In this document: piece by piece, positions 46,783-52,571 of the stretch
Numbering within the stretch: position 1 is the first letter of the stretch
Layout of the letters: each line of letters starts with the position of its first letter
Source: Halorubrum xinjiangense
Lineage (GTDB): Archaea > Halobacteriota > Halobacteria > Halobacteriales > Haloferacaceae
Direction: 5' to 3'
Length of the DNA: 64,000 bases
NCBI RefSeq assembly: GCF_900102375.1
Contig: NZ_FNBO01000015.1
Coordinates: forward strand, 1-64,000
The notes under the pieces: generated by a model
What the model saw: the letters and a program-made list of their open reading frames with translations, nothing else
What the model was told of the DNA's origin: nothing
The model's database searches: none
Translations under genes and position numbers: made by a program

Positions 46783-47283
46783 ATGTTCGACGAGATCCTC
46801 GAGAAGTTCGAGGGGTCACCCAGCCAGCAGGCCGTCATCCGACTGTTCTTGGAGCGCGGCTTCTCCGTCAACGAGGAGGGGCGGGTCGTCTCCGGCGGGA
46901 TCGAGATTCCGTACACCGGCATCGCGCGCGAGCTCGACGTCGACCGCCGCGTGGTGGACTCGACGACGGACGCCATCTTGGCCGACCCCGAACTGAAGCG
47001 CATCTTCACCAACATCTCGTCGATCCCGAGCCTGATGGATCTCGCCCCGGTCTTAGACCTCACGGTGCTCACCATCGAGGTCGCGGCCGCCGACGAGGCC
47101 GGGATCGTCGCCGAGGTGACCGAGATACTGGCCGACCGCGGCGTCTCGATCCGACAGGTGTTGAGCGAGGACCCCGAGTTCACCGACGACCCGAAGCTGT
47201 ACGTGATCACCGATGCCGACCTGTCGGGCGACCTGCTCGTGGAGATCCGCGACCTCGAGTACGTCCGCCGCGTCGGCTTCTGA
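46783..47283 (+). CDS. HTH plus ACT-domain regulator
   Basis: The 166-residue protein has an N-terminal HTH-like part (about 10-65, QQAVIRLFLERGFSVNEEGR, then GIARELDVDRRVVDSTTDAI) and a C-terminal ACT domain (about 92-164, LTVLTIEVAAADEAGIVAEV). ACT domains bind amino acids, so it is probably an amino-acid-responsive regulator. It lies 195 bp before radA on the same strand; a functional link is not shown. Confidence 0.8.
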   Translation: MFDEILEKFEGSPSQQAVIRLFLERGFSVNEEGRVVSGGIEIPYTGIARELDVDRRVVDSTTDAILADPELKRIFTNISSIPSLMDLAPVLDLTVLTIEVAAADEAGIVAEVTEILADRGVSIRQVLSEDPEFTDDPKLYVITDADLSGDLLVEIRDLEYVRRVGF

Positions 47284-47454: not shown

Positions 47455-47478
47455 GGATGGCGAACAAGCCACGTGTAC

Positions 47479-48510
47479 ATGCCTGAAGACGAACTCGAGG
47501 ACCTCCCCGGCGTCGGCCCGGCGACCGCGGACAAGCTCGTGGAGAACGGATTCGAGAGCTACCAGTCGATCGCGGTCGCGAGCCCCGGCGAGATGTCGAA
47601 CACCGCCGACATCGGCGAGTCGTCCGCCAGCGACATTATCAACGCCGCCCGCGAGGCCGCCGACGTCGGCGGCTTCGAGACCGGCGCGACCGTCCTCGAA
47701 CGCCGCCAGGAGATCGGCAAGCTCTCCTGGCAGATCGACGAGGTGGACGACCTGCTCGGCGGCGGCATCGAGACCCAGTCGATCACGGAGGTGTACGGCG
47801 AGTTCGGCTCCGGGAAGTCGCAGGTCACCCACCAGATGGCGGTCAACGTCCAGCTGGAGCCAGAGAACGGCGGACTCGACGGCGGCTGTATCTTCGTCGA
47901 CTCCGAGGACACGTTCCGCCCGGAGCGGATCGACGACATGGTCCGGGGGCTCGACGACGAGATCCTCGCCGACGAGATGGAGCGCCGCGAGATCGAGGGC
48001 ACCCCGAGCGACGAGGAGGCGCTTGAGGAGCTCGTCGAGGCGTTCTTAGACCAGATCCACGTCGCGAAAGCGTTCAACTCCAACCACCAGATCCTGCTCG
48101 CCGAGAAGGCGAAGGAGCTGGCCGGCGAACACGAGGAGACGGAGTGGCCGATCCGGATCGTCTGCGTCGACTCGCTCACCGCGCACTTCCGCGCGGAGTA
48201 CGTCGGCCGAGGCGAACTCGCCGACCGCCAGCAGAAGCTGAACAAGCACCTCCACGACCTGATGCGGCTCGGCGACCTGTTCAACACCGCCATCCTCGTC
48301 ACCAACCAAGTCGCGTCGAACCCCGACTCCTACTTCGGCGACCCGACGCAGGCGATCGGCGGGAACATCCTCGGGCACGCCTCCACGTTCCGGATGTACC
48401 TCCGCAAGTCGAAGGGCGACAAGCGGATCGTCCGGCTCGTCGACGCTCCGAACCTCGCCGACGGCGAGGCCGTGATGCGCGTCCAGAACGAAGGGCTGAA
48501 ACCGGAATAA
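47479..48510 (+). CDS. radA: DNA repair and recombination protein RadA
   Basis: ATG 47479 gives 343 residues; a GTG six bases earlier is less likely. The N-terminal helix-hairpin-helix domain ([20 protein letters not shown]) is followed by the polymerisation motif region and the RecA core, with Walker A GEFGSGKS at 107-114 and Walker [11 protein letters not shown]2 with [20 protein letters not shown] is present. It is the archaeal Rad51 recombinase that pairs homologous DNA. No intein is present. Confidence 0.97.
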
Positions 48511-48948: not shown

Positions 48949-49011
48949 ATGAACACGAGCGAACTGCGTTGTGAATCAAACAGTCGTTCAGTAGAGGTGG
49001 CGGAAACGTGA
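48949..49011 (+). CDS. Possible 20-residue leader peptide before amt
   Basis: ATG 48949 opens a short frame ([20 protein letters not shown]) whose TGA overlaps the GTG of the transporter (GTGA at 49008-49011). The decamer GGAAACGTGA occurs both at 48931-48940 and at 49002-49011. It may couple translation or be chance; there is no other evidence that it is expressed. Confidence 0.3.
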
Positions 49012-50678
49012 CGGGCGTCCTCGCCTCGATCGATCCAAGCGTCCTGGCACAGGGCGTGAACCTGATGTGGGTCGCGGTGGTCTGTTTCCTGATCTTCTTC
49101 ATGCACGCCGGCTTCGCGATGCTCGAAGCGGGGCAGGTGCGTGCGAAGAACGTCGCGAACCAGCTCACCAAGAACCTGCTCACCTGGGGTATCGGCATCC
49201 TCGTCTACTTCCTCGTCGGCTTCGGTATCGAGGGCGTCGCCGGCGGCGGCGGCTTCTCGCCGGCGTCCGCGCTCGCGGACGGCGACTGGGTCAACAGCTG
49301 GCTGTTCGGTGCCGTCTTCGCCATGACGGCGGCGACGATTGTCTCCGGCGCGGTCGCCGGCCGCGCGAAGCTCCGCGCGTACGTGGCGTACACGATCGCC
49401 ATCTCGGCGGTCATCTACCCGGTCGTCGCGGGCATCACGTGGGGCGGCGGCTTCCTCGCGGGCGTCGGCTTCGTCGACTTCGCGGGCGGGATGATCGTCC
49501 ACGGCGTGGGCGGCATCGCCGGCCTCACCGCGGCGTACATGCTCGGGCCGCGCATGGACCGCTACGCCGAGGACGGTTCGTCGAACGTCATCCCCGGACA
49601 CTCGATGACGTTCGCGGTGCTCGGCACCCTCATCCTAGCGTTCGGTTGGTACGGATTCAACGTCGGCACGACCGCGACCGTGTTCACGGTCACCGAGTCC
49701 GGCGAGCTCGCGCTCGGCGGCTACGCCGTGGTCGGCCGCGTCGCGCTGACGACGACGCTCGGCATGGGCGCGGGGGCTGTCGGCGCCGCGCTCGGGTCGA
49801 TGTACCTCACCAAGAAGGTCGACACCCTGTACGTCGCGAACGGCGTGCTCGCCGGGCTCGTCGCGGTCACCGGGATCGCCGACCTGGCCACCTGGTGGGG
49901 CGCCATTCTGGTCGCGCTCGTCTGCGGCCTCCAGCTCCCGCTGGTGTTCGAGTTCGTCTCGGACACGATGAAGATCGACGACGTGTGCGCGGTCTTCCCC
50001 GTCCACGGCTCCGCGGGCGTCATCGGCGTCCTCGCGCTGCCGTTCGTCAGCGTCAACGGGTTCTCCGTCGACCTGCTCGTCTCGCAGGTCATCGGCGTCG
50101 TGGTCATCACCGCGTGGACGATCGTCGCGACCGGCGTCGTCTTCGGCGCGTTCAAGGCCGCCGGGCAGGCCCGCGTCACCCCCGACCACGAGCGCGACGG
50201 GCTCGACGTCAGCGAGCACGGCGTCGAGACGTACCCCGAGTTCGGCCGCGCGAACGTCGCCACGGACGGCGGCTCCGCCGTTGTCGACACCACGGATGGC
50301 TCCCCCCGCGCCGACGGCGGCGCGGAGGCGGGCTCGGAGATCAAGATGGTCACCGCGGTCGTTCGCCCCGACAAGCTCGGGGCCATCAAGCAGGCGCTCG
50401 CGGAGATCAACGCCCCTTCGCTCACCGTGACGAACGTCTCCGGCCGCGGCAGCCAGCCCGCCAAGAAGGGCCAGTGGCGCGGCGAGGAGTTCACCGTCGA
50501 CCTCCACCAGAAGGTGAAAGTCGAGGTCGTCGTCGCCGACATCCCGGCGGACGAGGTGGCGGAGGCGATCGCCAACGCCGCCGAGACCGGCGAGCCCGGC
50601 GACGGCAAGGTGTTCATCCTGCCCGTCGAGGACGCGCTTCAGGTCCGCACGGGCACGACCGGCCCGGAGGCGGTGTAA
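49008..50678 (+). CDS. amt: Ammonium transporter fused to a P-II regulatory domain
   Basis: The GTG start at 49008 gives 556 residues. Residues 1-395 are an 11-helix Amt channel with AGFAMLEAG and the two pore histidines in [12 protein letters not shown] and [12 protein letters not shown] linker (about 395-445) joins it to a complete P-II domain (446-556): [20 protein letters not shown], the T-loop, and [19 protein letters not shown]. Normally P-II (GlnK) is separate and plugs Amt when nitrogen is plentiful; here the plug is tethered. The uridylylation tyrosine of the T-loop is replaced by tryptophan (W490, GQWRGEEF), so that modification is excluded. Confidence 0.93.
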
Positions 50679-50756: not shown

Positions 50757-51179
50757 ATGCTCTCCGAGACCCGGCTGTACGGCGCGGCGATCGCGTTCGC
50801 CTCCGGCGGCTACTCCCTCGCGAGCGCCGCGGGCGCGACGCAGATGACGGCGGGCGCGTGGCTCATGCTCGGCCTCGGCGTCGTCGTCGTCGCGCACGGC
50901 GGCGCGCTGCTCGCGTCGGTCGACTCCCTCTCCGAGCGGGCGAGCGGGGGGCTGATGATCGCGTACGCCCTCGTCATGCTTGCCAACCAAGTCGCCCTGC
51001 TGACGGGTATGACGGGCGGCGGCACGATGGGCGGCGGAATGGCAGGAACGGACGGCACGGGGATGGGGGGCGGTGACGCAGCGATGACCGCGGGGATGTC
51101 GTGGGACCTCGGGATGGTGACGCTCGCGCTCCTCATGTTCGTCAGCGGCGCGATCATGCTGCGAGACGACGGGATGTAG
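50757..51179 (+). CDS. Small membrane protein with methionine/glycine-rich loop
   Basis: The 140-residue protein has four helices (about 8-28, 32-52, 62-84 and 115-135). A loop of about 30 residues is almost only Met, Gly, Thr and Ala (TGGGTMGGGMAGTDGTGMGG). Met-rich loops can bind copper(I), but a metal role here is a guess. It lies 78 bp after the transporter and has a TTTTGC stretch but no clear TATA box. Confidence 0.6.
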   Translation: MLSETRLYGAAIAFASGGYSLASAAGATQMTAGAWLMLGLGVVVVAHGGALLASVDSLSERASGGLMIAYALVMLANQVALLTGMTGGGTMGGGMAGTDGTGMGGGDAAMTAGMSWDLGMVTLALLMFVSGAIMLRDDGM

Positions 51180-51233: not shown

Positions 51234-52571
51234 ATGAACCACGAGCGCTCGCGCGGGCTGTACGACCGCGCGCTGTCGGTGATACCGGGCGGGGTCAACT
51301 CCTCGGTCCGAGCGACGATGCCGCACCCGTTCTTCGTCGAGCGCGGCGACGGCGGCCACGTGATCGACGCCGACGGGAACCGCTACGTCGACTGGGTGAT
51401 GGGCTACGGGCCGCTGCTGTACGGCCACGACCTCCCGGACCCGGTCGAGGCGGCGGTCCAGTCGCACGTCGCGGAGGGGCCGATGTACGGCGCGCCGACG
51501 GAGATTGAGGTCGAACACGCCGAGTTCGTGGCGCGGCACGTCCCGAGCGTGGAGTCGATCCGCTTCGTCAACTCCGGGACGGAGGCGACCGTCTCGGCGG
51601 TCCGGCTGGCGCGCGGGCACACCGGCCGCGACAAGATCGTCGTGATGCAGGGCGGCTACCACGGCGCCCAGGAGTCGACGCTCGTCGAGGGGTCGCCCGG
51701 GGACGCGCACCCGTCGACGGCGGGAATCCCGGAGGAGTTCGCCCAGCACACCCTCCCGATCCCGTTTAACGACCCGCAGGCGGCCAAGGAGGTGTTCGTG
51801 GAGCACGGCGACGAGATCGCGGCCGTCCTCGCCGAGCCGATCCTCGCCAACAAGGGGATCGTCACCCCCATCGACGGCTACCACGAGACCCTGCGAGACC
51901 TCTGTGACGACTACGGCTCGCTCCTCGTCTTCGACGAGGTGATCACCGGGTTCCGCGTGGGCGGCCTCGGGTGCGCGCAGTCGAAGTTCGGCGTCACCCC
52001 CGACGTCACGACGTTCGGCAAGATCATCGGCGGCGGCTTCCCGGTCGGCGCGATCGGCGGGAAAGCGGATATCATCGAGGGGTTCACGCCCGCGGGCGAC
52101 GTGTTCCAGTCCGGCACCTTCTCCGGGCACCCGGTGACGATGGCGGCCGGGAAGGCCGGGTTAGAGTACGCCGGCGAGAACGACGTGTACGAGCACGTCA
52201 ACCGGCTCGGTCGGCAGCTCCGGGAGGGGATCGCCGAGATCTGCGCCGAGCGCGCGCCGGAGTACACCGTCGTCGGCACCGACTCGATGTTCAAGACGAT
52301 ATTCACCCGCGAGGCGCCCGACGACGTCGACGCCTGCTGTGCGGGCGGCTGCCGGCAGGACCCCGACTGTGCCCGCTACGATCACTGCCCGAAGACGGGC
52401 GCCGACGTCGCCGACGCCGCCACCGACCGCTGGGAGCGCGTGTTCTGGCAGGAGATGAAAGACCGCGGCGTGTTCCTCACCGCGAACCAGTTCGAGTGCC
52501 AGTTCACCTCCTACGCGCACACCGAGGCGGACGTCGAGAAGACGCTGGAGGCGTACCGGGAAGCGCTCTGA
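51234..52571 (+). CDS. hemL: Glutamate-1-semialdehyde 2,1-aminomutase
   Basis: The 445-residue protein has class III aminotransferase features: [40 protein letters not shown], the PLP lysine in [18 protein letters not shown] and [14 protein letters not shown]. It makes 5-aminolevulinate for haem and cobamide. A cysteine-rich insert near residues 360-385 ([20 protein letters not shown]) could bind metal or respond to redox state. Structured element copy 3 follows 75 bp after the stop. Confidence 0.95.

Follow-up and report, generated by a model that had tools for sequence, protein, structure and literature searches.

A haloarchaeal ammonium channel fused to a P-II domain, with Phe at position 51 and an apparently exchanged channel half in Halorubrum

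The ammonium channel AmtB of Escherichia coli is gated by the P-II protein GlnK, which closes it as a plug. Other Amt proteins are joined to an output module, as is the case for the receptor Sd-Amt1. Gating of AmtB by GlnK is also described in PMC8395244 and PMC3831643, and PMC8395244 gives Tyr51 as the uridylylated residue of bacterial GlnK. According to PMC3831643, GlnK of Haloferax mediterranei co-precipitates with AmtB1 after ammonium shock. Ks-Amt5, a histidine-kinase fusion, is reported to bind ammonium without efficient translocation (PMC5764959). A table of Marsh et al. 2013 (PMC4009401) places AmtB-GlnK among heteromeric prefusion complexes, as a complex with a known gene fusion.

We analysed a window of 64,000 nucleotides from Halorubrum xinjiangense (NZ_FNBO01000015.1, positions 1 to 64,000), in which channel and P-II protein form a single polypeptide.

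49008-50678, + strand: fused Amt-P-II gene, one 556-residue ORF with a GTG start and no internal stop
49068-50234, + strand: Amt channel domain, residues 21-409 (Pfam Ammonium_transp, 2e-88; alignment with E. coli AmtB)
50235-50342, + strand: linker, residues 410-445, mostly of low confidence in the structural model
50343-50675, + strand: P-II domain, residues 446-556 (Pfam P-II at 446-549, 5.5e-26)

The original prediction of an Amt channel and a complete P-II domain in one protein is borne out by the intact frame and by both Pfam domains, which score above their curated cut-offs (PF00909, 297 bits against 23.2; PF00543, 91.3 against 25). The Amt half lies below the cut-off of the narrower NCBIfam model TIGR00836 (311 against 343). 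The linker, put at about 50 residues in that prediction, measures 36 between the Pfam domains; measured with profiles built for this analysis, the distance from the end of Amt to the start of P-II ranges from 21 to 63 (median 32) over 135 fused ORFs. These 135 different ORFs, the window's included, come from haloarchaeal loci and rule out a frameshift or false joining of two genes, a danger that the prediction had itself named. The P-II half carries the T-loop as well as the motifs TGEPGDGK and QVRTG, which we take to be the B-loop and C-loop.

An AlphaFold2 monomer model (mean pLDDT 75, from 54 aligned rows) shows helices across residues 1-404; across 445-540, strands and helices follow one another in a P-II-like order. 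Values below 50 are found in the linker (404-439), the T-loop (476-499) and three further short stretches. All 50 PDB matches listed by Foldseek are Amt/Rh channels, and AmtB chains from 2nuu and 2ns1, entries for AmtB with GlnK, are among them; no P-II fold is among these 50, and the P-II half is supported by its sequence. In the source genome (99.93% complete), profile searches returned one P-II match and one Amt match, both of them the fused ORF. Neither a second Amt nor a free P-II, which the prediction had suggested looking for, was found there, and glutamine synthetase has one match.

Such fusions are known in kind and are ordinary in haloarchaea. In an even sample of 106 genomes, counted without two weak P-II matches below the cut-off, 59 of the 97 P-II-bearing genomes have a fusion, and 59 of 110 P-II genes above the cut-off are fused; the 59 were recognised by frame length and each was confirmed to hold Amt and P-II in one ORF. 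P-II is only fused in 57 of the 97 genomes, only free in 38 and present in both forms in two. Of 391 haloarchaeal genomes, 374 carry P-II together with Amt, one of which (G161) has weak matches only for both, and the same 17 genomes lack the two. This joint presence or absence in 391 of 391 genomes suggests that haloarchaeal P-II serves Amt above all. In some genomes (loci L145, L210 and L212 of genome G068, which has three P-II matches, and locus L080) further free P-II genes lie behind the fusion and may be copies that split off from it. Natronomonas gomsonensis has two fusion loci (L106, L107) of equal identity to the query.

To number the P-II half, we used E. coli GlnK from the K-12 record (L139) as a ruler, which places three residues of the T-loop as follows.

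50475-50477, + strand: Trp490, at GlnK position 46
50478-50480, + strand: Arg491, at GlnK Arg47, the tip of the T-loop
50490-50492, + strand: Phe495, at GlnK Tyr51

The original prediction held that Trp replaces the uridylylated Tyr. This was an error of register, since Trp490 stands at Tyr46 and the modified Tyr51 corresponds to Phe495: the modifiable Tyr is indeed absent, lost to Phe and not to Trp, and Trp is rejected as a lost modification site. The closest solved P-II structure, 4ozj, presumably H. mediterranei GlnK2, reads QWRGEEY in its T-loop and thus has Tyr at 51. The survey of the T-loop residue that the prediction called for was run on 204 unique haloarchaeal P-II ORFs, a set enriched for relatives of the window by 80 loci from a search with the window protein. 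Trp46 is present in 135 of 135 fused ORFs, but also in 66 of 69 free ones, and Arg47 is invariant in both classes (135/135 and 69/69). Trp46 is general in haloarchaeal P-II and says nothing about modification. Position 51 is Tyr in all 69 free ORFs; the fused ORFs have Tyr in 94 and Phe in 41.

We found Phe51 within the Halorubrum group and in a single genome resembling Natronomonas, always in fusions; it is a real but small peculiarity, chiefly of Halorubrum. A WRGEEF codon pattern, which misses AGR arginine codons, matched 50 of 391 genomes, of which 45 belong to genus g1 (all of its P-II-bearing genomes) and one to g37 (G286, locus L221). The other four were rejected as Phe51 cases, three matches (L219, L220, L222) lying outside P-II and that of G052 away from its sole P-II. 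We call g1 Halorubrum because the named Phe51 relatives are nearly all Halorubrum, the exceptions being Halobellus captivus and one MAG. All 26 of the g1 matches that were fetched as loci have an Amt half, which belongs to channel type A in 17, B in 8 and C in one (types as defined below). The g37 case is fused, and its nearest P-II is that of N. gomsonensis, which has Tyr51. On a P-II tree with position 51 masked, the residue changes state three times, or twice without the g37 row, compared with once when the position is left in. Because the masked tree shows these two to three changes, it is suggestive of more than one origin of Phe51, always within fusions. Fusion as the cause of the loss of Tyr51 is unsupported: 94 of the 135 fused ORFs keep the residue, and the changes, although all in fusions, are too few.

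Seven residues that we take to bind ATP/ADP and 2-oxoglutarate (T29, G37, Q39, K58, G87, K90 and R103 in E. coli numbering) are each kept in 134 or 135 of the 135 fused ORFs; their lack in relatives, which would have spoken against the original prediction, is not what we find. R38 is replaced by Ser and R101 by Gln in all 135. Since these ligand residues are kept together with Arg47, which we presume enters the Amt pore, the predicted covalently tethered plug stands, and a ligand-gated tethered plug would be the best reading of the fusion, making the channel putatively self-gating. Control by ligand only, which the prediction also claimed, survives for Halorubrum because Tyr51 is Phe there, by which the window protein departs from the proteobacterial uridylylated P-II; it does not hold for the fusion as such, given the majority of fused ORFs with Tyr51. 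The GlnD-type domain PF08335 had no match in the source genome, in any of 59 haloarchaea or in the Haloferax volcanii control genome, with a positive E. coli control, in a search that speaks to GlnD-type enzymes alone. Because none of the 59 haloarchaea has such a domain, losing the Tyr51 site may matter little. In contrast to this absence of GlnD-type domains, uridylylation of GlnK is reported for H. mediterranei (PMC3831643).

We consider it probable that the gene encodes an ammonium channel carrying its own GlnK-type plug, and that it consists of two modules, a channel half that has been replaced by recombination and a P-II half that is resident. The three P-II domains would trimerise beneath the channel trimer, as in E. 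coli AmtB-GlnK. With ADP bound or 2-oxoglutarate absent, Arg491 of each T-loop would be inserted into a pore, shutting it, whereas MgATP and 2-oxoglutarate would keep the T-loop retracted. The linker would hold the plug at the channel and fix a 3:3 ratio. In Halorubrum, Phe51 cannot be uridylylated, which would leave the ligands alone to set the plug. The channel half would have been swapped repeatedly with divergent alleles, the P-II half staying with the host chromosome.

The channel half aligns with AmtB at the twin His (H165 and H333, at AmtB H168 and H318), the Phe gate (F104 and F217, at F107 and F215), W145 and D157 (at W148 and D160), and Thr221 (at Ser219), residues whose roles we assume to be those of their AmtB counterparts. 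Its two closest solved relatives are the sensor 6eu6 (33% identity by fold alignment) and the receptor 8qj3. This raises the unlikely alternative that the fusion is an ammonium sensor, or transceptor, in which Amt senses outside ammonium and P-II passes the signal on, for instance by binding glutamine synthetase at the membrane or letting it go. We take 6eu6 as Ks-Amt5 since its residues match the list in PMC5764959. Three of the seven residues of the Ks-Amt5 ammonium site have identical counterparts (Glu31 = E40, Asn47 = N56, Thr109 = T110), but Gln24, Asp50 and Thr51 are replaced by H33, T59 and W60, and T112 by S113. Among the bulky residues that block the Ks-Amt5 pore, one of three is kept (Phe27 = F36) and two are absent (Tyr30 to L39, Phe34 to Q43), so that neither the second ammonium site nor the pore block of a Ks-Amt5-type sensor is complete. 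A sensor would be favoured by the single glutamine synthetase match in the genome, by the lack of any further P-II match there, and by a statement, cited in PMC11218638, that glutamine synthetase of H. mediterranei is under the control of GlnK; against it, the sole Amt found would be the sensor itself and the importer would be missing. Glu40 (49125-49127), at the position of the Ks-Amt5 ligand Glu31, is invariant in 54 aligned fusions and is Tyr in Archaeoglobus Amt-1.

A P-II half that is a relic or passive tether without gating function is quite improbable: Phe51 removes the known modification site and no GlnD-type domain was found, but the ligand residues are kept in all or all but one of the fused ORFs and Arg47 in all of them, and comparison with other genera gives 78% conservation for the P-II half and a lower 70% for the channel half.

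Returning to the channel with its own plug, comparison across Halorubrum shows that the fused gene is a mosaic, with a conserved P-II half and conserved flanks around an Amt half of three unrelated types. The segments concerned are the following.

46783-47283, + strand: 166-residue ACT-domain protein upstream of radA (domain match)
47473-48510, + strand: upstream flanking gene radA (Rad51 family), conserved whichever of the three channel types follows
50253-50343, + strand: right-hand boundary of the putatively exchanged channel segment, after residue 416, the last fixed A/B difference, and before residue 446
50757-51179, + strand: 140-residue glycine- and methionine-rich ORF, downstream of the fusion and upstream of the aminotransferase gene, with no Pfam match
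51234-52571, + strand: class-III aminotransferase on the downstream side, likewise conserved whichever channel type is present; we take hemL to be the name of its gene

Among the Phe51 genes of Halorubrum, the P-II halves are 88-97% identical to that of the window, whereas the Amt halves are 80-98% (type A), 66-69% (type B) and 67% (type C) identical, and the types are only about 63-66% identical to each other. On the Amt tree, from whose alignment nine Amt ORFs of fewer than 330 residues were dropped (one of them that of E. coli), type A joins Halopenitus and Haloparvum, B a Halohasta-like group and C another genus group. Halorubrum P-II groups with Halopenitus and Haloparvum, like the type A Amt, whereas the B and C channels nest elsewhere. 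A tree that keeps the Amt halves of the 34 Phe51 genes in one clade is rejected (p-AU 4e-148), for a clade defined by its P-II residue but after a first Amt tree had been seen.

The same discontinuity is seen at third codon positions. In Amt, identity falls from 78.3 and 78.6% within types A and B to 64.9% between them, whereas in P-II it is 81.3% between A and B and 82.0 and 81.0% within them. Type C is 63.1% identical to A in Amt and 75.9% in P-II, the latter value lying below those within types. When 22 A rows are set against 10 B rows, 97 differences are fixed, of which 95 are in Amt, two in the linker (residues 415 and 416) and none in P-II; a smaller set (7 A, 5 B rows) gives 108, 3 and 0. 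The outlying type A row L052 was omitted from the A set in these identity and fixed-difference counts. In DNA profiles of 17 loci, radA and hemL are alike across types wherever the contig reaches (that of L074 ends before hemL); dips in the intergenic regions are common to all types, and an additional dip, confined to Amt, sets B and C apart.

On a tree of radA and hemL for 34 loci (23 A, with L052 scored as A, 10 B and 1 C), the channel type changes at least nine times, on flanking genes that may themselves have recombined. This is about what shuffled labels give, nine or fewer changes being obtained in 103 of 300 shuffles, and the radA tree and the hemL tree alone each give nine. Halorubrum alkaliphilum (L089) has a type C channel with the usual Halorubrum P-II; the Amt of L225 is 100% identical to it and may be from the same species. 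The loops that face outwards by Amt topology differ most between A and B, but they were discarded as a special target of exchange, since comparison with other genera gives a similar profile (correlation 0.74).

Exchange of the channel by recombination, with the plug staying in place, would be the best reading of these patterns. Most simply, the P-II half may stay because it has to fit the host, in its metabolite levels and its further P-II partners, while the channel is exposed to conditions outside. Many Amt segments are invariant among the 54 aligned fusions, which would fit nearly one plug serving three channel types. We found no report of channel-half exchange in the literature searched, most of it from outside subscription journals.

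It is very unlikely that the P-II half moved instead, made uniform within the genus by gene conversion, with the channels inherited vertically. Free amt-glnK pairs in genera g44 and g6 do have close P-II beside unrelated Amt, a pattern partly inside one genome that fits conversion between copies, and 48 between-genus fused pairs combine P-II above 90% with Amt below 75%, so that close P-II is not confined to one genus. Against conversion, each of the 45 Halorubrum-group genomes with P-II has a single P-II; of the segments radA, Amt, P-II and hemL, only Amt sets the types apart; and it is the type A Amt that groups with the same two genera as Halorubrum P-II.

Replacement of the channel half thus remains our preferred reading, and a similar asymmetry is seen in other genera. 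Among 579 within-genus fused pairs, 278 have far Amt and close P-II and 2 the reverse, and without Halorubrum and g1 the counts are 46 and 2 of 86. Cut-offs for these counts were the 95th percentiles of between-genus pairs; the pairs are not independent, one genus may appear under both code and name, and the counts leave out fused rows that lacked a genus label as well as pairs of a coded with a named genus. Between genera, 24 fused pairs show close Amt (>85%) with far P-II (<80%), compared with the 48 of opposite kind. In a fuller set of 321 within-genus pairs, which includes repeats of one genome, 285 have their best change-point at residues 400-459 of the window protein. The boundary is not uniform, because 15 of 65 non-Halorubrum pairs break near the N-terminus. 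At third positions, P-II identity exceeds that of Amt in all 12 genus labels listed. The asymmetry is not a product of fusion, because unfused pairs within genera show it too (n = 106; 35 with far Amt and close P-II, 7 the reverse). As a tentative generalisation, which we do not yet favour, the haloarchaeal channel half could be an exchangeable cassette: deeply divergent alleles would circulate between species and between genera and be spliced again and again, in frame, before a resident, rarely travelling P-II, with selection keeping several channel types, for example through pH, ammonium supply or viruses, and a host-matched plug.

Tethering would remove the abundance and release of the plug from regulation, and in Halorubrum also Tyr51 modification, which makes the fusion a natural minimal system for testing ligand gating of Amt by P-II alone. 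As the sole P-II found is membrane-bound, the question arises whether P-II control of glutamine synthetase survives. Channel and regulator would evolve by different routes inside one gene, and the mosaic amounts to a natural domain-swap experiment from which the contacts required by the plug can be learnt. It is this exchange, unlike the already known fusion, that is worth following up.

The protein has the same architecture as the AmtB-GlnK fusion in PMC4009401, the accessible part of which deals with the assembly order of the unfused complex and holds nothing on haloarchaea, position 51 or exchange of halves. It shares with E. coli AmtB-GlnK (2nuu, 2ns1) the Amt fold, twin His, Phe gate, P-II profile, Arg47 and ligand residues. 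Unlike that complex, it is one polypeptide whose plug cannot leave, amt precedes glnK where E. coli has the reverse order, Phe stands at Tyr51, and no GlnD-type domain was found. The window P-II aligns end to end with 4ozj, with W46 and R47 in both; in H. mediterranei, AmtB1/2 and GlnK1/2 are encoded by separate genes, and 4ozj has Tyr51. Like Ks-Amt5 (PMC5764959) and Sd-Amt1, the window protein joins Amt to a C-terminal cytosolic module. However, it keeps the sensor site and the pore block of Ks-Amt5 only in part, and in place of the output modules of these two proteins it carries a P-II domain.
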